From Pseudomonadota bacterium (GTDB lineage Bacteria; Pseudomonadota; Gammaproteobacteria; Xanthomonadales; Rhodanobacteraceae), in contig JAKAWV010000001.1 in NCBI GenBank assembly GCA_021827205.1, forward strand, positions 186,001 through 250,000: a stretch of 64,000 bases of DNA, read 5' to 3'. The translations under genes were made by a program, and so were the position numbers. Shown here piece by piece: positions 46,362 through 64,000 of the stretch (within the stretch, counting starts at the first letter, position 1; each line of letters starts with the position of its first letter). The notes under the pieces are model-generated. The model was not told the origin of the DNA. It saw only the letters and a program-made list of their open reading frames with translations, and made no database searches.

Positions 46362-46801
46362 TGTCATCATGGCGCCCTGCTGTGAAGCCATGCAGGATAA
46401 CGACGCTGGCCTGCAGTACGATGGCGATTCCGTCGCGGGGGCGAATGTTCGAACAGGCGCTTCTGGCCCTCGGTTGGCCTGCGAATGCGGGCCAGAGCGG
46501 AGGGTGCACTTCGAAGCCGCATGTCGAACCAGCGACCGCGCTGGCGATGGTGTCGACGGAGACATGGACGGCCTTTTCACTGGGTACGGTGTTGCGCGCG
46601 TTTGAAATTGATCAATGTTCAGCGATTGTGCGCGTCGAGCGCTGACCAGCTGAATTTGTCGCAATGCCTTGAATCTTGCGGCGATTGCAACCGCATCTCC
46701 TGATCAGTTTGTAGCGCGCAGTGATGGTCAATCTTCTGCGCGCACCAACACTCAGCGTGAGCAGTAGCCGATCTGGTACATGCGGGAAGGGAGGTATCGA
46801 T

Positions 46802-49800
46802 GTGACAGTGGCGCCGGAAACGACCACGCTGGAACAACTGACCCCGGGCGTCATCGTACGCGGCATCGTGCCCGATGCCGCGGTCTGTGTGGTCAACGTG
46901 CAGTGGCACGGTTCTGATGCACTGACGCTGATCTATCGCGAGCCATCGGGACGAGTGGCCGATCGGTTGGTGATGCGCAGCGAAGCGTCCGAGCTTGCCA
47001 TCGTCGAATCCGGTCGCCCATGGAGCTTCGAGGGCGACGGCGCACTGTTCCGCCTGGTGTCCGAGGCGCAGCGCATCCGCTTGGCGCATCTGTTCGATCC
47101 CATGCTAGCCGTGCACACCTCGCTTGTCGAGCCGCTGCCGCACCAGATCACGGCCGTGTACGAGGCCATGCTGCCGCGTCAGCCACTGCGCTTCTTGCTG
47201 GCGGATGATCCGGGCGCGGGCAAGACCATCATGGCCGGGCTGCTGATGAAGGAGCTTATTGCGCGCGGCGATTTGCAGCGCTGTCTGGTGGTGTGCCCGG
47301 GCAGTTTGGCCGAGCAATGGCAGGACGAGCTTTACAAGCGCTTCCATCTCCCGTTCGAAATCCTGACCAACGACAAGATCGAAGCCTCGCGATCGGGCAA
47401 CTGGTTTGCCGAGACACCCTTGGCGATCGCGCGTCTGGACAAGCTCTCACGCAACGAAGCGATGCAGGAACGTCTGCAAGCGCCCGACTGTTCCTGGGAT
47501 CTGACCGTCTGCGACGAAGCGCACAAGATGTCGGCGTCGTTTTTCGGCAACGAAATCAAGTACACCAAGCGCTACCGGCTCGGACAGTTGCTGTCCACGC
47601 GCACGCGGCATTTCCTGCTGATGTCGGCCACCCCGCACAACGGCAAAGAGCAGGATTTCCAGCTCTTCATGGCCTTGCTCGATGGCGACCGCTTCGAAGG
47701 CCGCTTCCGCGATGGCGTGCACCAGGTCGACGTGTCCGACCTGATGCGGCGCATGGTCAAGGAAGACCTGCTCAAGTTTGACGGTGCGCCACTGTTTCCC
47801 GAGCGCATCGCCTACACGGTGCCCTTCAAACTCTCCGATCTCGAGGCGCAGCTGTACCGGGCCGTGACCACCTATGTGCGCGAGGAGTTCGATCGCGCCG
47901 CCAAGCTTGAAAATGAAGGGCAGGCTGGCACCGTTGGATTCGCACTCACCATCCTGCAACGGCGGCTCGCTTCCTCACCAGCCGCGATCGCGCACTCGCT
48001 GCAGCGCCGCCGCGAGCGCCTGCAAAGCCGCCTGCGCGAACTCGAGGTCATGCAGCGCGGGGCCCAGCTTGTAGCCATCACCGTCGCGCCACCGTTCAGT
48101 GCCGACGATCTCGAGGATCTGGACGACGCCCCCGAGCAGGAGGTCGAAAGCACCGAGGCCGCCATGCTCGATCAGGCCACTGCGGCGCGCTCCATCGAGG
48201 AACTCAAGGCCGAGATCCAGACCCTGCAAACGCTGGAGCAGCTTGCCAGTCGGGTACGGCGCAGCCCCGATGCCGATACCAAGTGGCGCGAGCTGCGCAG
48301 CTTGCTGCAGACCATTTTCACGCCAGGGGGTTTGCGCTCTGGCGTCGCTGAGGAACATGGCGTCTATATCGCCGCTGCATTACCTCGCCCGGTGCCTTCG
48401 CCCAGCCAGAAGCTGGTGATCTTCACCGAGCATCGCGACACGCTGCATTACCTCGAGGGCAAGATCGGCGATCTGCTTGGGCAACACGAAGCCATTGTCA
48501 TCATCCATGGTGGCATCGGCCGCGAGCAGCGGCTGGCGGCACAGGAAGCCTTTCGCAACGATCCTACCGTCAAGGTGTTGCTGGCCACCGATGCTGCAGG
48601 CGAAGGCATCAACCTGCAGCGTGCACACCTGATGATCAACTACGACCTACCCTGGAATCCCAATCGCATCGAGCAGCGCTTCGGTCGTATCCATCGCATC
48701 GGGCAGACCGAAGTCTGCCATCTGTGGAACCTCGTGGCACAAGACACCCGCGAGGGCGACGTGTACCTGCGCTTGCTGGAAAAACTCGAACAGGCGCGCA
48801 GTACGCTTGGCGGCCGGGTGTTCGATGTGCTGGGTAAGCTGCAGTTCGAGGGCCGCCCCCTGCGCGATCTGCTGATCGAGGCTATCCGCTACGGCGAGCG
48901 AGAGGATGTCCGCCTGCGCCTGACACGCGCCGTGGATCATGCCGTGGATACCACCGCCATCCGCGATCTGCTCGAGGATCGCGCGTTGGCACACGACGCC
49001 ATGGATGCCAGCCGTGTGGCGCGGATCCGCGAGGACATGGAGCGCGCCGACGCGCGCCGCCTGCAGCCGCACTACATCGAGTCATTTTTCCTCGAAGCCT
49101 TTCGTCGGCTGGGCGGCAGTGCCAAGCCTCGTGAACCCAACCGCTTCGAGATCACCCACGTGCCCGCCATAGTGCGCCAGCGCGATCGCATGATTGGCGT
49201 GCGCGAGGCCATCGTGCCGCGCTACGAGCGCATCGCTTTCGACAAGGCACTGTTGGCGCCGCCTGGCCAGTCGCTTGCGGCTTTCGTCTGTCCGGGCCAT
49301 CCGCTGCTGGATGCCACACTCGATCTGATGCTCGAACGACATCGCGACCTGCTGCGTCAGGGCAGCGTGCTGGTGGACGAGGCCGACCTTGGTACCGTGC
49401 CGCGCGTGTTGTGCGCGCTGGAGCATGTCGTACAGGACGCCAGCCGAACGCGTAGCGGCCTGCAGCGCGCGGTGTCAAAGCGCATGCTGTACGTCAGCAT
49501 CGATGGTCAAGGCCATGCGCGCCATGCCAGCGATGCGCCCTATCTGGACTGCCGCCCGTTGGCTGCTGATGAGCCTGCTTACGCAGACGTTCTGCAGCGC
49601 CCCGAATGTGCTTTCGTCGGTGCGCAGATCGAGCACCAGGTGCTCGACTATGCCATCGCGAAGGTCGTACCTGAGCATCTTGCTGAGGTGCGCACGCGCA
49701 CTTTGGCGCGAATTGCCAAGACCGAAGTCGCAGTCAAGGATCGCCTGACCAAGGAGATCATGTACTGGGATCACCGTGCCGAGGAGCTCAAGGCGCAGGA

Positions 49801-50404
49801 GCAGGCCGGCAGGCCCAATGCACGACTCAATGCCGACGAGGCACTCAAGCGCGCCGATGCCTTGCAGTCTCGCCTGCGTATACGCCTGGACGAGCTCCAG
49901 CGAGAACGCCAGATCACCTCACTGCCTCCACTGGTGCAGGGGGCGGCGCTTATCGTGCCATTGGGCCTGATCCGCACCATGCAGGGCCAGCCCCTCGCCG
50001 CGACCGAGACGAGCGCGGTCGTCGATACGCAGGCCGCCGCCGCGCGCGCCCGGGCCATCGTCATGGAGGTCGAGCGTGGTTTGGGCTTCGACCCGATCGA
50101 CCGCGAGTTCGAGAAGGTCGGCTATGACCTCGAGAGTCGCGTGCCCGGCACCGGGAAACTACGCCTCATCGAGGTCAAGGGCCGCACGAGCGGCGCCAGC
50201 GCGATCACCGTGACGCGCAATGAAATCCTCACCAGCCTCAACAAGCCCGACGATTACATCCTCGCCATCGTCGAGTTTCAGGAGGAAGGGCAGCACCGCG
50301 TGCATTACCTGCGCCAGCCGTTCCAGCGTGAGCCTGACTTCGGGGTCACCAGCGTCAACTACGACTTCGCCGAATTGCTGGCGCGTGCGGGGCGGCCGGA
50401 GTGA
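46802..50404 (+). CDS. SNF2/DEAH-box helicase with C-terminal DUF3883 (DISARM DrmD-like)
   Basis: LADDPGAGKTIMAGLLMKELIARG (Walker A), LTVCDEAHKMSASFFG, LLMSATPHNGKEQDFQLFM, LLATDAAGEGINLQRAHLMINYDLPWNPNRIEQRFGRIHRIGQ; C-term LRLIEVKGRTSGASAITVTRNEILTSLN (DUF3883). GTG start at 46802 with upstream GGGAGG. Confidence 0.9.
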   Translation: MTVAPETTTLEQLTPGVIVRGIVPDAAVCVVNVQWHGSDALTLIYREPSGRVADRLVMRSEASELAIVESGRPWSFEGDGALFRLVSEAQRIRLAHLFDPMLAVHTSLVEPLPHQITAVYEAMLPRQPLRFLLADDPGAGKTIMAGLLMKELIARGDLQRCLVVCPGSLAEQWQDELYKRFHLPFEILTNDKIEASRSGNWFAETPLAIARLDKLSRNEAMQERLQAPDCSWDLTVCDEAHKMSASFFGNEIKYTKRYRLGQLLSTRTRHFLLMSATPHNGKEQDFQLFMALLDGDRFEGRFRDGVHQVDVSDLMRRMVKEDLLKFDGAPLFPERIAYTVPFKLSDLEAQLYRAVTTYVREEFDRAAKLENEGQAGTVGFALTILQRRLASSPAAIAHSLQRRRERLQSRLRELEVMQRGAQLVAITVAPPFSADDLEDLDDAPEQEVESTEAAMLDQATAARSIEELKAEIQTLQTLEQLASRVRRSPDADTKWRELRSLLQTIFTPGGLRSGVAEEHGVYIAAALPRPVPSPSQKLVIFTEHRDTLHYLEGKIGDLLGQHEAIVIIHGGIGREQRLAAQEAFRNDPTVKVLLATDAAGEGINLQRAHLMINYDLPWNPNRIEQRFGRIHRIGQTEVCHLWNLVAQDTREGDVYLRLLEKLEQARSTLGGRVFDVLGKLQFEGRPLRDLLIEAIRYGEREDVRLRLTRAVDHAVDTTAIRDLLEDRALAHDAMDASRVARIREDMERADARRLQPHYIESFFLEAFRRLGGSAKPREPNRFEITHVPAIVRQRDRMIGVREAIVPRYERIAFDKALLAPPGQSLAAFVCPGHPLLDATLDLMLERHRDLLRQGSVLVDEADLGTVPRVLCALEHVVQDASRTRSGLQRAVSKRMLYVSIDGQGHARHASDAPYLDCRPLAADEPAYADVLQRPECAFVGAQIEHQVLDYAIAKVVPEHLAEVRTRTLARIAKTEVAVKDRLTKEIMYWDHRAEELKAQEQAGRPNARLNADEALKRADALQSRLRIRLDELQRERQITSLPPLVQGAALIVPLGLIRTMQGQPLAATETSAVVDTQAAAARARAIVMEVERGLGFDPIDREFEKVGYDLESRVPGTGKLRLIEVKGRTSGASAITVTRNEILTSLNKPDDYILAIVEFQEEGQHRVHYLRQPFQREPDFGVTSVNYDFAELLARAGRPE

Positions 50405-50657: not shown

Positions 50658-52394
50658 CTAATCGGCGTTCATGCGCCTAAGTTCTCGGAACCCGATGTTG
50701 AGCAATTCAGGGCGTAGTTCCGTCAACGAGCTTGCCGGTACGCCGAGCCACAGGAGGTTGCGGGCGCGGGTCACCGCGACATAGCCGATGCGCCCGACCT
50801 CGGTGTCCACGCCGGCCAACAGCGCGTTAGCGTGTTCCCTGTTCGCCAGGTACAGCACCGCATCGAGGCTTTCACCCTTTGCCTGGTGCACCGTGTCCAC
50901 GCGGATGCGCGGCGCCTCGTCGTTCGCCGCCAGATCGGCGGCGGCAATCAGCGGAGCATGGGGCAAACCCCTCTTCGCGAGCTTATTGCCCAGATTGTCG
51001 GCACTCGCAAACCCGTGGTTCTGCGCGATTTGCGCCAGCAGTGCAATCGTTCTGTTTAGTAGCAGCGAATGCCACTGCGCGGCCCCAGTCAACGTCGCGG
51101 CCGGCAGTCCCGAAACCGGGTTGCGCGTGTATGCCCACACGAGCCGGCGCAGAGCCCGATCATCCGGGTAGCCCGCAGGCTGCGTGATTCTTGCGACGAG
51201 TCCCTGTGGCGGGTCAGCCAGCAGACCGACGATGCCGGTGGCCACTAGCTTGAACGCGCCGAGGTAGTCCTGATGTCGGTCGCGCAGGATCGCGGCCTGT
51301 GCGAGGCGCTTGACCGTTCCCTTGCCTGGTGCGCCTTCTTTGCCGGCGAGCTTGTCGGCCATGTCGCGGCCGCGGCAGAGCACCGCCGAGCGTTCGAGCT
51401 TCAGGTCAGCTGCCAGCACCGCCGCCTGAAACGCAGAGATGAGGTTTTCCCGCTCGGCGTTGCGATAGGTAACGAAGAAGGTGCCATGCGTCGTGTCGGG
51501 CGCGACCCTGTCCGCGGTGTCGGCGCGCGTCGACAGCCGGTTGGCCAGCTCTAGTACCGCCGGCACGGATCTGTAGTTTCTGGTGAGCCTGAGACCACTG
51601 ACACCCTTCCGCTGACCATAACGCGTCAGGAACGCACCATTGGCGCCTGCGAACTCGTAGATGCCCTGGCTCGGGTCGCCGATCAGCGAGACCTGGCAGC
51701 CGGCGCCGATCAACTGTTCGATGATGGCTTGATGCACCGTACCGATGTCTTGCGCCTCGTCGATCAGGACATGCGGGTAGCGGCGGGCCAAGGCGCGGAG
51801 AATGCCGGGTTGCTCTGCCAAGGTGCGGTAGCACCAGTAGCGCCCAAGGTTGTGAGTATATGCACCGACCTGCCCAAGGCGATGGACGAGGCATTTTGCT
51901 TGCTCGGTGTTTAGCTTGCGCGTGCCGTCGTTTTCTGAATAGCAGAAGTAGACTCCGTCGTTGTCGATGCCGACTTGCATCTTCGTGATTTCGCGCGGGT
52001 ATGAGTCTGTCTGAAACCTGAAGCCGGCAAGGAAAGCCTCTTCGCCCATCACGAGGAATGCGGCCGTCTTCGCGCCCATCGTCCGATAGGCGTGTGGGCG
52101 CAGTACGTTGCCGGTGATGAACCCATCCAGCGTGCCGATCTCGACGCGGTCATGGGCGACACCGGCGGCCGCGTCTCGGACGAGGTTCTGGTACTCCTGC
52201 CGGAAGGTCTCTACAGCGACATTGGAGAACGACAACAAAGCGATACGGCCGCGGTGATCGCCAAGCTGCCGGCGCATCTGCGCGAGGCGGCGTACCGCAG
52301 TGAACGTCTTACCGCTGCCGGCGCAGGCAATCACGGACATTGGCGCGAGCGGAGCTCCGATGATCTGCAACTGCTCGGCAGAGGGCTGGGTCAC
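50658..52394 (-). CDS. gajB: UvrD/Rep-like helicase, Gabija GajB-like
   Basis: VIACAGSGKTFTAVRRLAQM, VLIDEAQDIGTVHQAIIEQLIGAGCQVSLIGDPSQGIYEFAGANG; 4-bp overlap with upstream OLD nuclease gene. Confidence 0.87.
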   Translation of the reverse strand: MTQPSAEQLQIIGAPLAPMSVIACAGSGKTFTAVRRLAQMRRQLGDHRGRIALLSFSNVAVETFRQEYQNLVRDAAAGVAHDRVEIGTLDGFITGNVLRPHAYRTMGAKTAAFLVMGEEAFLAGFRFQTDSYPREITKMQVGIDNDGVYFCYSENDGTRKLNTEQAKCLVHRLGQVGAYTHNLGRYWCYRTLAEQPGILRALARRYPHVLIDEAQDIGTVHQAIIEQLIGAGCQVSLIGDPSQGIYEFAGANGAFLTRYGQRKGVSGLRLTRNYRSVPAVLELANRLSTRADTADRVAPDTTHGTFFVTYRNAERENLISAFQAAVLAADLKLERSAVLCRGRDMADKLAGKEGAPGKGTVKRLAQAAILRDRHQDYLGAFKLVATGIVGLLADPPQGLVARITQPAGYPDDRALRRLVWAYTRNPVSGLPAATLTGAAQWHSLLLNRTIALLAQIAQNHGFASADNLGNKLAKRGLPHAPLIAAADLAANDEAPRIRVDTVHQAKGESLDAVLYLANREHANALLAGVDTEVGRIGYVAVTRARNLLWLGVPASSLTELRPELLNIGFRELRRMNAD

Positions 52395-54220
52395 TGACCG
52401 GCCTGCTCAGGCTGTTTGCCTTGCTTGGCCTGACAGGCGTGGGCAATCGCCTCGCGGATGTACTCCGGCACCACGCAAGCGGCGCCATTGGCAATCACCT
52501 GCGCGAGCGCCTGGCCGAAACGTCCCTTCTGCACGTTGTTCTGCGGACGCTCGAACATGCCGCTGAAGAGGGCGCGGGCCTTGGCTGCGTCGCCTTGTGC
52601 AGCCTCGACCGCAGCCGCGACGCTCTCGCCGATCTTCGGGTGCAATTCCTTGAGCGCCGTCAGCATCGCCGTGCGGTTGTTGGCATGCAGGGCTAAGTCG
52701 TATTCGAACGTCTTGAGCCCATGGAAGACCTTGACGAAGGCGTCCTCGCCTTCCTTCATCTTGGCGGTGTAATCCGATACCTTTACTGCATCGCCGGGTG
52801 CGGGATAGACCGCCTGAAGTTCCTCGCTGCGTTCGTCTTCATCTACCGGGTCCGCGTCGGTAATGACCGCCACTGGGATCTTCAGCGCCTTTTCGCCGAA
52901 CAGCGGCAGGAACGAGTCGAAGTTCAGTCCTTCGACACTGATCAGGCTGACGCCGTGTTCGCGCAGCTTGTAGCCGCATTTCTCGGCGAGCACGCTCACC
53001 AACATCAGTTCGGCGGCGCCTTCGACGAAGATGACGCGGCGGGCGAAGAACAACTCAGCCCGGGTCACGTCGAGGTAGCGTTCCAGCTTCTCCCGTTTCC
53101 CCTTGCCGAAAGTGATCGTGCGCGGAAAGAACGTCTCCACGGACGTCTCTGTGTCGACCAGGCAGGCGAGGCTGTCGAGATCGGCGATGCTGGCGAAGTA
53201 GGGGGAGTGGCTGGTGACGAACAATTGGACGGGCTTCTCGCCCTCGACGGCCCTGATCTTTTCCAGATAGCTGAGCAGTACCGCCTGGAGCTGCGGATGC
53301 AGGTGCGCCTCCGGCTCCTCGATAATCAGGCTGCGGTAGCTCGCTTCCGGGTTCTTGGCCAGTTCGCTGAGTACCACGGCCATGAAGATCAGATTGTTGA
53401 AGCCGAGTCCGTTCTGCTCGATCTCGAATGCATCCACGAGCAGCGACAGGCGCGAGGCCAACCGCTGGAAGTCGCTGCCGCTCAGGCCGAGGTCGAGCGC
53501 CTGCGCGAGCTGTGGGCCGAGCATGGTGTCGTGACGGCTCTTGATCGCCGTATGCGTGTTGACGACCGGCGCGTGCTGCTTCAATTTCTCGTCGAGTTCC
53601 TTCAGCGCTTTGTTGATCCCCTCGCGCCCCGCGTCGTCAGCAATGAGCTGGAACAGCCGCGACAATAGACTGGTGCGGTTGGGCCTGAGTCCCTGCGAGG
53701 CATCCCGTAACGGCGGCAGGTAGACACCGCGCAGGTTCTCCATCATGTCCGCGGTCAGGCCAACGTCCTCGTGGTCGCCGCACCAGCGTTGGGCGCGCAG
53801 CCTTCCGGTCTTGTCGGCTTCCGAGTAGCGGATAGTGATATGGGCTTCGAGCTTGCCGTTCGCATCGGGCTTCAACGCGGCTAGGAAATCGGCCTCGTCA
53901 TCCGGGTCCAGGTCGCGGAAGACGTACTGGAACTCGATGTCGCCGGCCGGCGCGCCGCCATTCGGCCTGTGTATGTCGTCGGCGTCGAGGCGCGGATAGG
54001 GATCGTCGTGCCCCGCCAGCAGGGCGCGCAGTGCATCGACGACGGCGGTCTTGCCGACGTTGTTGGTTCCAACGAGAGCGTTTAGTCCAGCCTGGAAGCT
54101 CAGTTCAACGTCGTGCAGCTTCCTGAAGTTCGAAACCCGCAGTTTGGCCAGATACACAGCGCCCCTCCGCCCCTTCCAAACACGCCAATGGTCCGTGCCG
54201 GATCCAGAGGGAGTCAACAT
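52391..54220 (-). CDS. gajA: OLD-family ATP-dependent endonuclease, Gabija GajA-like
   Basis: LAKLRVSNFRKLHDVELSFQAGLNALVGTNNVGKTAVVDALRALLAG; LIIEEPEAHLHPQLQ; TOPRIM VIFVEGAAELMLVSVLAEKCG and VAVITDADPVDED; true start probably internal (VYLAKLRV). Confidence 0.87.
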   Translation of the reverse strand: MLTPSGSGTDHWRVWKGRRGAVYLAKLRVSNFRKLHDVELSFQAGLNALVGTNNVGKTAVVDALRALLAGHDDPYPRLDADDIHRPNGGAPAGDIEFQYVFRDLDPDDEADFLAALKPDANGKLEAHITIRYSEADKTGRLRAQRWCGDHEDVGLTADMMENLRGVYLPPLRDASQGLRPNRTSLLSRLFQLIADDAGREGINKALKELDEKLKQHAPVVNTHTAIKSRHDTMLGPQLAQALDLGLSGSDFQRLASRLSLLVDAFEIEQNGLGFNNLIFMAVVLSELAKNPEASYRSLIIEEPEAHLHPQLQAVLLSYLEKIRAVEGEKPVQLFVTSHSPYFASIADLDSLACLVDTETSVETFFPRTITFGKGKREKLERYLDVTRAELFFARRVIFVEGAAELMLVSVLAEKCGYKLREHGVSLISVEGLNFDSFLPLFGEKALKIPVAVITDADPVDEDERSEELQAVYPAPGDAVKVSDYTAKMKEGEDAFVKVFHGLKTFEYDLALHANNRTAMLTALKELHPKIGESVAAAVEAAQGDAAKARALFSGMFERPQNNVQKGRFGQALAQVIANGAACVVPEYIREAIAHACQAKQGKQPEQAGQ

Positions 54221-54680: not shown

Positions 54681-55961
54681 ATGTTGATCGAACTCAGCGT
54701 CGCCAACTACCGCTCCATCCGCGATCGCCAGACCTTGTCCTTGGCGGCAGGGCTCGGCACTGAAATGCGCGGCCCCAACGTGGCCGATGTGCCCGGCGAT
54801 CTCGCGCTGCTGCGCGTCGCAGCGATCTATGGCCCCAACGCCTCGGGCAAGAGCAACCTGTTCAAGGCGCTCGGCGCGCTGCAGCAGCTGGTGCAGTGGT
54901 CGGCCTCTGCCTTTCAGTTGGGCCTGCCGTTGCCGGTGGTGCCGTTTCGACTTGAGGCAGCGACTGAAGAGCAGCCCACTGAGTTCGAGATCCACTTCAT
55001 CGCCGGCGATGGCGTTCGCTATCAATACGGGTTGGCGGCAACCGCCCGCCAGGTCCACGAGGAGTCGTTGATCGCCTATCCGCACGGCCGCGCGCAGCGA
55101 TGGTTTGAGCGCACCCGCACGAGCGAAGGGAACGCTACTTGGAAATTCGGCCCCAACTTTCATGGTTCCGCCGCACTGCGCAAGAGCTGGCAGAAGAACA
55201 CCCGCGACAACGCGCTGTTCCTTTGCGCCGCCGTCGCAAACAATAACGAGCAACTGCGACCTGCGTTCCAGTGGCTGACGCAAGGGCTGATCGTGGTCGC
55301 GCCGGGCATGACCATGAATCCGTTCTTGAGCCTCGAATTGCTGCGTTCCGAGGCCGGCGCTCACCGCATCATGGGCTTGCTGCACGCTGCGGACATCGAT
55401 ATCGACCACCTCGAGTTGAAGGAGGAAGACGCTCCGCCTCCGCCGCCCGGCATGGCGCGCATCGATATCCGCCTGCCGGTGCCGCCAGGTTTTCCTTTGC
55501 CGTCGGTCCAGAACAAATTCCTGCGGGTGATGTCCTGGCACAAGCGCAGGGATGACGGCGAAGCCGTGGTTTTCGACTTCAGCGAGGAATCCGACGGCAC
55601 GAGGAAGCTATTCGACTATGCAGGCGGCTTGTTGCAAGCCATCGACCGTGGCGCCACGGTCTGCATCGATGAGCTGGATCGCAGCTTGCATCCGCACATT
55701 ACCCGATTCCTGGTCGAGCAATTCCAGCCTTCGAACAATCCCAACAACGCGCAACTTGTCTTCAGCACTCATGACGTCACGCTGATGGACCAGGATTTAT
55801 TGCGGCGCGACCAGATCTGGTTCATCGAAAAGGATGCTCAGGGCAGCTCGCGCTTGTATCCGCTGCTTGACTACTCGCCGCGCAAAGGCGAGGCGCGAGA
55901 GCGCGGGTACCTCAAGGGTCGATATGGTGCAGTGCCATTGACCGGCACACTGGAGTCCTGA
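54681..55961 (+). CDS. AAA family ATPase, RloA/AbiLi-like
   Basis: MLIELSVANYRSIRDRQTLSLAAG..., IYGPNASGKSNLFKALGAL, CIDELDRSLHPHITRFLVEQFQ, LVFSTHDVTLMDQDLLRRDQIWF; paired with RloB. Confidence 0.88.
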   Translation: MLIELSVANYRSIRDRQTLSLAAGLGTEMRGPNVADVPGDLALLRVAAIYGPNASGKSNLFKALGALQQLVQWSASAFQLGLPLPVVPFRLEAATEEQPTEFEIHFIAGDGVRYQYGLAATARQVHEESLIAYPHGRAQRWFERTRTSEGNATWKFGPNFHGSAALRKSWQKNTRDNALFLCAAVANNNEQLRPAFQWLTQGLIVVAPGMTMNPFLSLELLRSEAGAHRIMGLLHAADIDIDHLELKEEDAPPPPPGMARIDIRLPVPPGFPLPSVQNKFLRVMSWHKRRDDGEAVVFDFSEESDGTRKLFDYAGGLLQAIDRGATVCIDELDRSLHPHITRFLVEQFQPSNNPNNAQLVFSTHDVTLMDQDLLRRDQIWFIEKDAQGSSRLYPLLDYSPRKGEARERGYLKGRYGAVPLTGTLES

Positions 55962-55962
55962 C

Positions 55963-56586
55963 GTGTCGCGGCGCTCGCGCAGCATGCAAAGCCTGCGGCG
56001 CAAGCCAGGGTTCCGGAAACCGCGTGAGATCACCCTGATCATTTGCGAGGGCGGGTCCGAGCGCGTGTATTTCGATGCCCTGCGCAACCACCTGCGTCTC
56101 ACCACCACGGAAGTTTCATTCCCCTGCCCGCAGGGTTCGGCACCGATCAACGTGGTGAAGTGCGCCGAGCAAAAAGCCAAAGAGCGTGGCGGCTACGAGA
56201 ACATCTGGTGCGTTTTCGATCGCGACGAACACGAATCCTTCGATCGCGCGCGCGCCAAGCTCCAGCAGCACAAAAGTCGCTGGCACCTGCACGAAGCCGT
56301 GTCGATCCCCTGTGTCGAATTCTGGCTGCTGTTGCATTTCGAGTTCACCGACGCGCCGTTTTCCGACTGCGACGCCGTCATCCGCAGACTCGTGCAGCAT
56401 CTTCCCGGCTACACCAAGAACGATCCGCGCCAAGTACCGCCCTTGCTCGAACGCCTTGAGCAAGCCATGCAGCACGCCCAGCGCCTCGAGTCGCAGCGGA
56501 CGACGATCGGCGACAATCCCTACACCTCGGTGCACCACCTCGTGCGGCACCTGCAGGGTATCGCCGCCAAGGATCCCAGGGCATGA
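55963..56586 (+). CDS. RloB-like protein (AbiLii-like)
   Basis: [25 protein letters not shown]...[22 protein letters not shown]...[31 protein letters not shown]; next to RloA-like ATPase. Confidence 0.88.
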
Positions 56587-59471
56587 CCGTCAAAAAACTC
56601 ATCGAAGTCGCGCTGCCGCTGGAAGCGATCAACATCGCCAGCGCGCGCGAGAAGTCCATCCGTCACGGCCACCCCAGCACCCTGCATCTGTGGTGGGCGC
56701 GCCGGCCGCTGGCGGCGGCGAGGGCGGTGATCTTTGCGCAGATGGTGGATGACCCATCGAGTCACCCAGATCTGTTCAGGACCGAAAAGGCGCAGGACAA
56801 GGAACGCCAGCGTCTGTTCCGCATCATCGAAGACCTGGTGCGGTGGGAGAACACCACTAACGAGACGGTGCTGCAGGCGGCGCGCGATGAAATCTGGGCA
56901 AGCTGGCGGCGCGCCTGCGCCGAGCACGCGGATCATCCGCGTGCGAAAGAGCTGTTCGACCGCCACAAGCTGCCTGCCTTCCACGACCCCTTCGCCGGCG
57001 GCGGTGCGCTGCCGCTGGAAGCGCAGCGGCTGGGACTGGAGAGCTACGCCAGTGATCTCAACCCGGTGGCGGTGCTGATCAACAAGGCGATGATCGAGAT
57101 CCCGCCGCGCTTCGCCGGCAAGCCGCCGGTGAACCCCGAGGTGCGCGCCAACCAGCGCGATCGCCTCACCACCTGGCGTGGTGCGCAGGGCTTGGCCGAG
57201 GACGTGCGCCACTATGGCCAGTGGATGCGCAACGAGGCCGAGCGACGCATCGGGCACCTGTACCCCAAGGTCGAGGTAACGGCCGAGATGGCCAAGGACC
57301 GGCCCGACCTCAAGCCCTACGTGGGCAAGCAGCTTACGGTCATCGCCTGGTTGTGGGCGCGCACGGTGAAAAGCCCCAATCCCGCGTTTGCCGACGTGGA
57401 CGTGCCGCTGGCCTCCACCTTCATGCTCTCCACCAAGCCGGGCAAGGAGGCGTATGTCGAGCCGGTGATCGAGGACGGCAGCTACCGGTTCACGGTGAAG
57501 GTGGGCAAACCCAGGGACGCGGAGGCAGTGAAGAACGGCACCAAGCTCTCACGCGGCGCGAACTTCCAGTGCCTGATGTCGGGCACACCAATCGCAGGCG
57601 ACTACATCAAGTCCGAAGGCAAGGCCAGGCGCATGGGTGCGCGGCTGATGGCGATCGTCGCGGAGGGGGATCGCGGGAGGGTCTATCTCGCACCGACGCC
57701 GGAGCATGAGGCAGCCGCGCGGAAGGCTAAGCCGGAGTGGAAGCCGGAACAGTCGCTGCCCGACGACCCGCGCAACTTCTGGACGGTGCAATACGGACTT
57801 ACAACATACGGCGACCTTTTCACCCCACGCCAGCTCGTCGCCCTGACCACCTTCTCCGATCTCGTGAGTGAGGCGATGCAGCAGGTCAAGCGCGATGCGC
57901 TCGCCGCCGGCCTGCCCGATGACCCCACTCCGCTCCGCGACGGCGGCACCGGCGCCACCGCCTACGCTGAGGCGGTGGGGGTGTATTTGGGGCTGGCTGT
58001 GGACAAGGTTGCCGACCGCAACTCGACGGTTTGCGCATGGGCCAGTCTGCGCGAACACGCGCGGAATACCTTCGGCAGACAGGCAATACCGATGGTCTGG
58101 GACTTTGCCGAAAGCAACCCACTTTCGGATTCGAGCGGCAACTTTGCTGGAGGGATTGTTTCCATCGTTGCAGGGCTTAACTCCATGTGCCCGACGGCAG
58201 CGGGGCACGTCTGTCAGGCCGATGCCCAATCACAGGCGATCGCTGCTGACAAGGTCATCTCGACTGATCCGCCTTACTACGACAACATCGGCTACGCCGA
58301 CCTGTCGGATTTCTTCTACGTCTGGCTGCGTCATTCGCTGCGGCCGATGTTCCCGGATCTGTTCGCCACCGTGGCCGTGCCCAAGGCCGAGGAACTAGTT
58401 GCGACCCCATACCGACACGGCAGCAAGGAGAAGGCAGAGACCTTCTTCCTCGACGGCATGACGCGGGCGATGCATCGCCTGGCCGAGCAGGCACATCCTG
58501 CCTTCCCGGTCACCATTTACTACGCTTTCAAGCAGGCCGAAAGCGATGGTGCCGACGGCACTACAAATACCGGTTGGGACACTTTTCTGGCCGCAGTCAT
58601 CGAAGCTGGGTTCGGCATCAGTGGCACTTGGCCGATACGCACAGAGTTGGACAGGCGCATGATCGGCTCGGGCACCAACGCCCTGGCCTCCAGCATCGTG
58701 TTGGTATGCCGCCCGCGTGCCGCCGATGCGCCCACCGCTACGCGCCGCGAGTTCGTCACCGCACTCAAGGCTGAACTGCCCCAGGCACTTGCCCATCTGC
58801 AGGCCGGCAACATCGCCCCGGTGGATCTGGCGCAGGCAGCGATCGGCCCCGGCATGGCAGTCTACACGCGATATGCGAGGGTGCTTGACGCCGAGGGCAA
58901 GCCGTTCAGCGTGCGCGAGGCGCTGGCGCTGATCAACCAGACCCTCGACGAGGCGCTGGCCGAGCAGGAAGGCGACTTCGATGCCGAGACGCGCTGGGCG
59001 CTGACCTGGTTCGAGCAAAACGGCTTCGCCGAAGGCGAGTACGGCGTGGCCGAACAGTTGTCCAAATCCAAGAACACCAGCGTCGCCGGCATGGTCGAGG
59101 CCGGCATCCTCGAATCAAAACGGGGCAAGGTGCGATTGCTCAAGCCGGAAGAATTGCCGGCTGACTGGAACCCGGCTACGGATCCGCGCCTCACCGCATG
59201 GGAGGTCGTCCACCAACTGATCCGCGTGCTCGGCGCGGGCGGCGAGCGCGCCGCCGCGGCACTGCTGCAAGCGCTAGGCACCAAGTCCGAGATCGCCCGC
59301 GAGCTGGCCTATCGCCTCTACACCTTGTGCGAACGCAAGAAGCGCGCTGCGGAGGCGCTTTCCTACAACGGTCTCGTCCAGAGCTGGCCCGAAATCGCGC
59401 GCCTGGCGCAGCAAACACCGCGTGCCGTTGCGCCAAGCACCGACGATTTGTTCGACACAGGGGAGAACTAA
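56583..59471 (+). CDS. DUF1156 domain-containing DNA methyltransferase (anti-phage associated)
   Basis: [56 protein letters not shown] (DUF1156); [29 protein letters not shown] (SAM motif); [24 protein letters not shown] (DPPY); ATGA overlap with rloB. Confidence 0.93.
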
Positions 59472-59474
59472 GCG

Positions 59475-59900
59475 ATGTCCAAGCTGCGCACCGCACAGGG
59501 TGACGATCATCCCGATGCCGCCCTCAAACATTTGCTGGATGCACAAGCCCTGTTCGGACAGAGCCGAGCCGATGGCGCAGGGTATCTGAGCGGCTATGTG
59601 GTGGAATGCGCGCTCAAGAGTATCTGGCACCTCGAGACTGGAACATCAAGGCAAGGACACGATCTGCGTGGCTTGACTCAAGCGGTGAGCGCTGTGGCAA
59701 CTGTTGCCGGTGCCAAGACCGCACGTTACTTCAAGACAGCGACAAGTGGCGTGCCCTCATCAGTCATCGCCCAGTGGAAGCCAGAAATGCGTTATCGGGC
59801 GCCAAGCATGTCGCCGGGCGACGCTCAGGCATGGTGCACTATCGCCGATGCCGTGTATCAGGAAACCGTCGCCCAGATGCAACTTGATGGAGTGATCTGA
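59475..59900 (+). CDS. HEPN domain protein
   Basis: DDHPDAALKHLLDAQALFGQSRADGAGYLSGYVVECALKSIWHLETGTSRQGHDLRGLTQ...QWKPEMRYRAPSMSPGDAQAWCTIADAVYQETVAQM; HEPN-like helical pattern. Confidence 0.72.
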   Translation: MSKLRTAQGDDHPDAALKHLLDAQALFGQSRADGAGYLSGYVVECALKSIWHLETGTSRQGHDLRGLTQAVSAVATVAGAKTARYFKTATSGVPSSVIAQWKPEMRYRAPSMSPGDAQAWCTIADAVYQETVAQMQLDGVI

Positions 59901-61201
59901 TGCCATTCATTCATTTCGACGAAGCGAAACAGGCTGCGATGGCGGACGTAGTGACATGGGTAGGCACCACTTCGCAAGACATTCGCGCGATGCTCATCGT
60001 GGATTTGTTCGGCAAGCTGAGGCTCGCCCTGTGGTCGAACGCCGCAGCGGACACCACTAGTCTTGTACAGAACCTGGTGGCCAACTGCGGCGCGTGGTGG
60101 ACGGGCGAGGTGCTGCGCGTCAAGGAACTCGACTCGGTGACTGCCAAGGCCTATGACTCGGCGTGGGATTCGGCGCGGCCCGACGAAAACGAGCCACGTT
60201 TTCGCGCACATGACCGTCACCGCAGCCGCGCCGCGTGGTTTGCGGGGCCGATCGAGCCGCCCTGGGAAGCATCTGGGAATGAGCCGTCAGTCATTGTGTT
60301 CTATTCGTTCAAGGGCGGTCTTGGCCGCAGCACACTGCTTGCCTCGTTCGCGATCCAGCGGGCACGGGCGGGCGAACGCGTGTGCATCGTGGACTTCGAT
60401 TTGGATTCTCCAGGCGTGGGGCGATTGCTCTCGGCCGACACACAAGGGCTTACCGCGCGCTGGGGCGTGGTGGACTTCCTGCTCGAACATTCGCTGACCG
60501 ATGCACCGCTTGCGGACTACTTTCACCGCTGCGACCGCGTGGCGGGGGCGGGCGAGATTGTCGTCTTTCCAGCCGGCAACATGGACGAGGAGTACGCCGA
60601 CAAACTGGCGCGGATAGATCTCGAAGAAGCGCCCGCAGCCCACGACAGCGGACTTTGGAAGTTGCTTGCTCGCATGCGCGAAGAACTGAAACCACGGTGG
60701 GTCTTGTTGGATGCGCGTACCGGCATTTCGGAGCCGGCGGGTCAGTTGCTGTCGGGCATAGCGCATCTGCATGTGCTTCTGGGCACGACGCAAGACCAAA
60801 GTTGGCAGGGGCTCAACCTCGTGCTCGACCGCCTTGGGAAGGAGAGAGTGCTGGCCGAGCGCCCCCAGGCGGAAGTGCTGTTGGTGCAAGCGATGGTGCC
60901 CTCCGGCGAGCCTGGCAAAGCAGCAAAGGAAGCATTTGCTGCCCATGCAGAAGAAGAGTTCGACGAGCGCTTCTACGCCGCTGAAGAGGGCGAGGCTGGG
61001 GGCGACATCGATGATCGCTTCTGGACCCTCGGGGATAAGGACAGCCAGGACGCACCGCATGCACCGATGCCTGTGGACTACGACAGCAAACTGGCGAGCT
61101 TTGGGGATATCGCCGAGGTTGCCAATGCGCTTTGCAGCGGGCCCTATCTGCCGATTGTCGAGCGCATCGTGAGCCGCTTCCTGATGGAGCACGAAGCATG
61201 A
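59900..61201 (+). CDS. KGGxGR-motif variant ParA/MinD-like AAA ATPase
   Basis: VIVFYSFKGGLGRSTLLASFAIQRARAGERVCIVDFDLDSPGVGRLL; deviant Walker A KGGLGRST; overlaps HEPN stop. Confidence 0.85.
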   Translation: MPFIHFDEAKQAAMADVVTWVGTTSQDIRAMLIVDLFGKLRLALWSNAAADTTSLVQNLVANCGAWWTGEVLRVKELDSVTAKAYDSAWDSARPDENEPRFRAHDRHRSRAAWFAGPIEPPWEASGNEPSVIVFYSFKGGLGRSTLLASFAIQRARAGERVCIVDFDLDSPGVGRLLSADTQGLTARWGVVDFLLEHSLTDAPLADYFHRCDRVAGAGEIVVFPAGNMDEEYADKLARIDLEEAPAAHDSGLWKLLARMREELKPRWVLLDARTGISEPAGQLLSGIAHLHVLLGTTQDQSWQGLNLVLDRLGKERVLAERPQAEVLLVQAMVPSGEPGKAAKEAFAAHAEEEFDERFYAAEEGEAGGDIDDRFWTLGDKDSQDAPHAPMPVDYDSKLASFGDIAEVANALCSGPYLPIVERIVSRFLMEHEA

Positions 61202-62670
61202 GCAACCCGTGGAACGACAAGCGCCACACGCTGTTACAGGCGCTACAGAATATTGGCAGTTCGGGCAGGGCTGAAGGCGCCCATCTAGATCGAATAGGGC
61301 CGGGCTACTATCCGGTAGCTGAGCACTTGCGTCTGCTCGACCCGGACGTGGTGCTGGTGGTAGGCCCGCGTGGATCGGGCAAGACCGAGATCGCGCGCGT
61401 GTTGACTGACGCTGCGTTGTTCGATGCGGTGAAGCTTTACGCGCCAGCCGTGCGCCTGCCGGTCGGGCGCGCGGAATGGTTGCGTGTCTATCCTGCGGGG
61501 ACCGAGACCTTTGAAGGCATCGGTCTGCGCACCTTCATGAACACGGCGGTAGACGGCACAGAAGCCTTGCGTGAACTGTGGTTCGCCTACCTTGTGCGAG
61601 CCCTGAAAGGCCATCTGGATGAGCAAGGTCGATCCGACGTAGCTCCGCTGCTCGCACCCCCAGCGGCGAACATTGAGGCCATTTGCGGCGCCTTTCGCGA
61701 GTTAGGGACCAAGCCTGTTGTGGTGCTGGATCGGCTGGACGAGCAACTGAAGCAGCAAGGTCGCTATGTGTTTGCGACTTACGACGAGCTGGACACGCTC
61801 GGGGACGGCGATTGGATGCTGGTTGAAGCTGGAGTGCGTGGCTTAGTGGCATTGTGGGCCGCCTATGCACGCCGCTGGCGGCGTATCCGCGCCAAACTGT
61901 TTCTGCGCACCGACCTGTATGAACGGCACGCCAAGGCCGGCGGCGCGGATCTTGCCAAGCTCGCCGCTGGGCGCGTGGAGTTGGTATGGAGCGACCGAGA
62001 CCTCTACGGTCAGCTGCTTAAGCGTATGGCCAACGTGGACGTCGTCCTGGCCGACTATGTGCAAGCCATCAAAGGCGTGTCATGGAGCAAAGACCCATCA
62101 CTGGGCCAGATTCCGAAGTTGCGAACCTGGCAGGACGCCCGCCCGGTGGTAGAGCGTATGGTCGGCATCTACATGGGCGCGAACCAGAAAAAGGGGCTGG
62201 TCTATCGCTGGCTGCTCGATCATGTGCGCGACGGACTGGGTCGTGGCTATCCGCGCCCATTCGTGCGGCTGATGGAGGAGGCCGCACGCCTGGAATTGCA
62301 GGCCTTCGGCACATTGAGGTCACCGCGATTGCTGGAGCCGGCATCGCTGCGTCGTGCGCTTGATCGCGTATCAAACGGCCACGTCACCGATTCGAAGGAT
62401 GAATGGCCATGGCTGGATGCCATCAAGGAAAAACTACTCGGTAATCCACTTGTGCCCTACACCGAAAAAGCAGCGATCAAGTTGCTGGAGGGACTATTGG
62501 ACGCGAGGGACAGGGCATCGCCGCCATTCGAAGGCCGCGAGTTGCTCGATTACTTGCTGGAGCTGGGCATCTTCCGGCGACGGTCAGTGGACGGCCGACT
62601 TGATGCCCCTGATTTGTATCTCGCAGGTTTGGGGCTCAGACGCAAGGGTGGCGTAAAGAAAAAGAGATAG
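61198..62670 (+). CDS. P-loop ATPase of unknown function
   Basis: MSNPWNDKRHTLLQALQNIGSSGRAEGAHLDRIGPGYYPVAEHLRLLDPDVVLVVGPRGSGKTEIARVLTD (Walker A), KPVVVLDRLDEQLKQQ (Walker B-like); ATGA overlap with upstream gene. Confidence 0.78.
   Translation: MSNPWNDKRHTLLQALQNIGSSGRAEGAHLDRIGPGYYPVAEHLRLLDPDVVLVVGPRGSGKTEIARVLTDAALFDAVKLYAPAVRLPVGRAEWLRVYPAGTETFEGIGLRTFMNTAVDGTEALRELWFAYLVRALKGHLDEQGRSDVAPLLAPPAANIEAICGAFRELGTKPVVVLDRLDEQLKQQGRYVFATYDELDTLGDGDWMLVEAGVRGLVALWAAYARRWRRIRAKLFLRTDLYERHAKAGGADLAKLAAGRVELVWSDRDLYGQLLKRMANVDVVLADYVQAIKGVSWSKDPSLGQIPKLRTWQDARPVVERMVGIYMGANQKKGLVYRWLLDHVRDGLGRGYPRPFVRLMEEAARLELQAFGTLRSPRLLEPASLRRALDRVSNGHVTDSKDEWPWLDAIKEKLLGNPLVPYTEKAAIKLLEGLLDARDRASPPFEGRELLDYLLELGIFRRRSVDGRLDAPDLYLAGLGLRRKGGVKKKR

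Positions 62671-62692: not shown

Positions 62693-64000
<1,308 letters not shown>

Follow-up and report, generated by a model that had tools for sequence, protein, structure and literature searches.

The 64,000-nt stretch of DNA analysed here (the window) carries a compact three-gene module encoding a HEPN protein (A), a ParA/MinD-fold ATPase with a variant KGGVGR motif (B) and a second P-loop ATPase (C). The trio sits inside an Hma operon and, judged by its sequence, is probably a divergent member of PDC-M28, a defence candidate catalogued in silico. A defence role is well supported by context. We propose an autonomous accessory module of the PDC-M28 type that moves horizontally, acts against phages and has become embedded in Hma; its two ATPases would gate a HEPN RNase that aborts infection. 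We give this proposal about an even chance of being right as a whole. The trio and the genes around it are arranged as follows.

46721–50404, + strand: HmaA, SNF2 helicase with a C-terminal NOV_C domain (PDLC00659, 1620 bits)
50658–54220, − strand: Gabija, embedded between HmaA and the AbiL-like pair (GajB, 50658–52394, 883 bits; GajA, 52391–54220, 995 bits)
54681–56586, + strand: pair of AAA_21 ATPase (AbiLi-like) and RloB (AbiLii-like), between HmaA and HmaB (family and PADLOC matches)
56583–59471, + strand: HmaB, DUF1156 DNA methyltransferase, directly upstream of the trio (PDLC00660, 1613 bits)
59475–59900, + strand: A, HEPN protein (PDC-M28A-like), 141 aa (PF05168, PDC-M28A at 45.5 bits, and fold); candidate RNase effector or RNA-binding adaptor
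59900–61201, + strand: B, KGGVGR-variant ParA/MinD-fold ATPase (PDC-M28B-like), 433 aa (NF047398; PDC-M28B at 188.6 bits)
61198–62670, + strand: C, P-loop ATPase (PDC-M28C-like, near the Sll1717 family), 490 aa (PDC-M28C at 191.6 bits)
62693–64000, continuing past the window end to L002:6035, + strand: HmaC, Swt1-HEPN and DUF499 ATPase, directly downstream of the trio, 1113 aa (full protein, 1101 bits)

The three genes are genuine coding sequences that lie close together and evolve under purifying selection. The open reading frames and junctions are exactly as the sequence-only reading had given them. Gene A starts just after the HmaB stop at 59471. The overlap of A with B is 1 nt and that of B with C is 4 nt, and 22 nt separate the end of C from the start of HmaC; a longer TTG frame at 61132 provides an alternative start for C. 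Between the window and Ferrovum myxofaciens, the dN/dS values of A, B and C are 0.20/1.48, 0.19/2.02 and 0.11/0.94, respectively, well below one in all three genes, which indicates purifying selection on the trio. The reported site between a DUF1156 methyltransferase and a DUF499 ATPase is also confirmed, as the flanking genes are HmaB and HmaC. These flanks, together with HmaA further upstream, identify the host operon as Hma (PMC8565338; PMC12839542), renamed type-1 DUF499-centred BREX-related in PMC12839542, and all three Hma proteins are matched strongly. The N-terminus of the DUF499 protein is a Swt1-type HEPN domain (PF18731, 5e-33) that was absent from the earlier reading; thus two HEPN domains of different families, one in HmaC and one in the trio, are encoded at the locus.

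The trio had been put forward as a module belonging to no described system, which does not hold. PADLOC-DB v2.0.0 contains PDC-M28A, B and C, a catalogue entry and not a characterised system, and assigns all three genes to it, ruling out an undescribed system. The window proteins match the three profiles in the same order, on one strand and near full length (A, residues 11–140 of 141; B, 4–405 of 433; C, 14–489 of 490), with a modest score for A. A typical PDC-M28 member (L041) scores ~112, 482 and 559 bits, compared with about 45, 189 and 192 bits for the window, whose trio is ~25% identical to typical PDC-M28 and falls in a separate Hma-associated clade. In the passages of later papers that mention them, the PDCs are credited to Payne et al. 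2024 (bioRxiv 2024.01.29.577857), and most are described as lacking experimental validation. Our literature searches returned no paper naming the trio, PDC-M28 or KGGVGR and no functional study of the trio. As far as the literature found goes, the following results, described below, are new: the carriage on prophages and plasmids, the variety of systems that host the trio, the alternative site in the HEPN protein and the fusion to NACHT. Part of this may be contained in Payne et al. 2024.

The three genes form a true module whose synteny is conserved. Of 399 genomes of the phylum searched with PDC-M28C, 27 gave matches at E <= 0.001, and of 369 genomes of the class searched with our own alignment, 8 did so at 1e-20; these genome surveys cover one phylum, and the occurrence in Cyanobacteria and Actinomycetota comes from plasmid matches only. 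When contigs were scanned with a peptide pattern from the window B protein, the only matches were in Ferrovum and, over a short stretch, in an Algicola record (L005). In 20 regions, the genes for the HEPN protein, the KGGVGR ATPase and the P-loop ATPase follow one another in this order on the same strand, slightly overlapping or with small gaps between them, and the module occurs in dozens of loci overall. The neighbourhood search thus found not scattered genes but a conserved arrangement, both stand-alone and embedded in other systems. Two regions have the P-loop gene without the other two, and in two the scan picked up the HEPN gene very weakly or not at all. On two Streptomyces plasmids (L081, L085), no HEPN or KGGVGR partner of gene C was detected, and B and C are fused in two cases (L052, L086). 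For three copies at contig edges (L037, L072, L074), the label 'alone' is uncertain. Pairwise distances of B and C correlate at 0.90, a value reached in 0 of 200 permutations, which denotes co-divergence; the corresponding correlation between the HEPN protein and B is 0.80. At one of the two loci where the scan gave little or no HEPN signal, the HEPN gene beside the B–C pair appears to be split by a frameshift (L051:6588-6994), by natural decay or an assembly error.

The module is carried by mobile elements. Trios adjoin integrases on plasmids of Enterobacter, Paraburkholderia and Agrobacterium, and complete E. coli genomes contain nothing close to the Enterobacter plasmid trio at the DNA level. 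All nine of the IMG/VR viral contigs matched by the C profile encode the full trio, and according to PHROGs, genes for terminase, portal, major head, integrase, primase, endolysin and RusA lie near several of these. In one viral contig (L106), a P2-type portal gene directly follows the trio, and in another (L109) a terminase gene follows with one unassigned ORF between. The P2 defence hotspot lies between gpA and the portal gene, in a cos-proximal position (Rousset et al. 2022, PMC9122126). The INPHARED phage genomes contain no match to the trio. Many copies (L036-L055) are chromosomal and lie among apparent housekeeping genes, not in defence islands.

Embedding in methyltransferase-based systems is recurrent. 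The window and Ferrovum (L004) have the trio within Hma, and on a Calothrix plasmid (L057) it stands beside HmaC and HmaA. BREX-2 loci contain it at two different positions (L056, L060 and L080): in Thiodictyon and Sphaerotilus it separates pglX from pglY, and in Streptomyces it separates pglW from pglX. The gene order DUF1156_MTase, trio, PLD_Helicase is found in two genomes (L073, L076), and one type I R-M locus reads hsdR-hsdS-trio-hsdM (L077). Upstream of the DUF1156_MTase–trio–PLD_Helicase locus of L073 lies a gene (L073:113-2908) whose product matches PADLOC Ppl at 413 bits. In a tree of B and C, the three trios associated with Hma group together in one clade, the other embedded trios are scattered, and parsimony counts seven changes between the embedded and non-embedded states; this topology requires several independent gains of embedding. 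Whether the trio always accompanies DUF1156 and DUF499 had been raised as a question, and the answer is no: among ~10 readable Hma loci of the class, only that of the window has the trio at the HmaB–HmaC junction. A core part of Hma is therefore rejected, as the trio is missing from most Hma loci and most trios lie outside Hma. The spread across host systems and mobile elements and the rarity in Hma show that the trio is portable and enters methyltransferase-based systems without being a standing part of them.

By sequence, A is a borderline HEPN protein, its Pfam PF05168 score of 22.2 bits lying just above the cut-off of 22.0, and a PDB sequence search with it returned nothing. Structures were predicted for the HEPN and B proteins. 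The AF2 model of A (pLDDT 79) gave 2hsb, 1wol and 3o10 as top Foldseek matches, with a probability of 1.00 and E values of 0.02–0.05, which are weak by E; in the model, A adopts the HEPN helical fold. The fold neighbours belong to the AbiV/HEPN-T group (sacsin HEPN, AF0298 and TM0613), with a best E of 0.02 and sequence identities of 9–17%, and AbiV is among the structure matches, ranked below the HEPN-T structures. Pfam HEPN_AbiV matches 7 of 17 members of the trio HEPN family. The canonical Rx4-6H motif is present in only 2 of 37 members, the window reading RYRAPSM, which rules out a plain HEPN RNase. Among readable members, His62 is conserved in 38 of 38, Glu44 and Lys48 in 37 of 37, and Arg106 in 35 of 36; Cys45 and Tyr107 are also invariant or nearly so. 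AbiV shares with A both the loss of Rx4-6H and a conserved upstream His, and we know of no AbiV that is encoded with two ATPases. Anantharaman 2013 (PMC3710099) described AbiV as lacking Rx4-6H and having an alternative conserved His, and proposed that such a His together with a basic residue forms an alternative, possibly active RNase site. His62, located N-terminal to Arg106, fits this arrangement as a predicted site. The title of PDB entry 9bj6 calls AbiV 'an RNase in a two-component antiphage system'. Given the absence of the canonical motif, the RNase claim for A is lowered to this putative alternative site.

B matches NF047398, the KGGVGR-motif ATPase family, at 157 bits, well above the curated cut-off of 90. 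It has the ParA/Soj/MinD fold and a KGG[VL]GR[ST] motif, KGGLGRST in the window, together with the switch residues. Its N-terminal alpha/beta domain of ~106 residues matches no family. The P-loop Lys is replaced by Arg, so that hydrolysis may be altered. In C, the Walker A (GPRGSGKTE) and Walker B (DRLDE) motifs are intact and the C-terminal region is conserved. C scores 70.6 bits to the Sll1717 P-loop ATPase family (NF047389), just under the curated cut-off of 75, and shows weak AAA_16/STAND-like sequence matches; a PDB sequence search with C returned nothing meaningful. PDC-M28C proteins of ~1300–1800 aa were seen in L044, L045, L046, L054 and L055. In one clade, Pfam Metallophos and NACHT domains follow the ATPase; they were found in the four of these proteins that were scanned (L044, L045, L054 and L055). 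The same domain pair constitutes DS-8, a validated anti-phage metallophosphatase-NACHT protein (DefensePredictor, PMC13092281), to which the fusions are likened by domain identity alone. This architecture links C to NLR-type immunity, whereas the window C protein lacks the metallophosphatase-NACHT fusion.

The earlier suggestion that the HEPN protein is an effector or adaptor working with two ATPases stands as the best reading of these data. In the mechanism that we propose, C and the Walker-Arg ATPase B would form an ATP-dependent sensor or switch. The trigger may be infection itself or a block of the surrounding methyltransferase-based first-line system. B and C would then release or position A, which would cleave or bind RNA through a site built on the invariant His62 with Arg106, Glu44 and Lys48. 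Translation would stop and the infection would be aborted, which would make the trio a second line of defence. In this role the trio would resemble PrrC of type I R-M systems and PARIS of BREX/BR loci, which are backup effectors inside methyltransferase-based systems. To our knowledge, the ATPases of PrrC and PARIS have no sequence relation to those of the trio. PrrC is itself a HEPN RNase (PMC3710099, PMC12839542), and stand-alone HEPNs are described as auxiliary effectors of DUF499-centred BREX-related systems in PMC12839542, in which a word search found no MinD, SIMIBI, NACHT or calcineurin. By analogy with PrrC and PARIS, the trio might go further and fire when its host system is inhibited. 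It would then be a mechanistically new immune switch, in which Walker-Arg ParA/MinD-fold and STAND-like ATPases control a non-canonical His/Arg HEPN RNase and guard Hma, BREX, DUF1156 systems and type I R-M. We regard this extended version as tentative and probably too far-reaching.

The readings that compete with an accessory defence module differ in which component they discount. If the HEPN protein were a non-enzymatic adaptor for RNA or protein, the ATPases or a nuclease borrowed from the host system would act, and the trio would be a sensor or assembly module feeding the effector of the surrounding system. Consistent with this, 35 of 37 members lack Rx4-6H, one clade has C fused to a metallophosphatase-NACHT effector or sensor, and trios are embedded beside nuclease-bearing systems. 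However, the invariant His/Arg/Glu/Lys set exceeds the needs of a plain adaptor, and no obvious other nuclease lies beside most stand-alone and prophage copies; we therefore consider a purely adaptor role doubtful, while treating it as a serious contender. The trio could instead be a set of Hma or BREX subunits, for example a factor for methyltransferase targeting or maturation, and no separate defence at all. In line with this view, it separates the methyltransferase from the ATPase in Hma and in two BREX-2 loci, it adjoins a methyltransferase gene in all fully embedded cases, and the three Hma-associated trios share a single clade. The adjacency is weak evidence, however, because few internal junctions are available, and the absence of the trio from most Hma loci and of any such system around most trios makes a subunit role unlikely.

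A cellular, non-immune ATPase module for localisation or stress, occasionally swept into islands, is the remaining alternative. In its favour are the ParA/MinD-like nature of B and, in several families, chromosomal copies that stand alone amid ordinary genes, and the many copies in apparent housekeeping contexts mean that a non-immune role is possible in those lineages. As a general account we find it quite improbable, in view of prophage carriage, plasmid copies beside integrases and repeated embedding in restriction-type systems. If the preferred reading, a mobile accessory module in which ATPases gate a HEPN effector, is true, a catalogued and uncharacterised candidate would become a defined, testable, compact three-gene defence system. 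Its copies, alone or embedded and with or without an NLR-type fusion, would offer a natural comparison for studying the coupling of second-line effectors to first-line restriction, and the system would give insight into how ParA/MinD-type switches serve immunity.

The Hma operon of the window contains further insertions. The Gabija system is complete and lies on the opposite strand inside the operon. At the place before HmaB where the window has the AAA_21/RloB pair, Ferrovum has only a 117-aa RloB-like ORF (L004:4529-4882). Just beyond the window end, downstream of HmaC, a helicase (L002:6357-8882) matches the candidate PDC-S28 at 878 bits and is followed by a PLD-like protein (L002:8945-10084) with a weak DrmC match.
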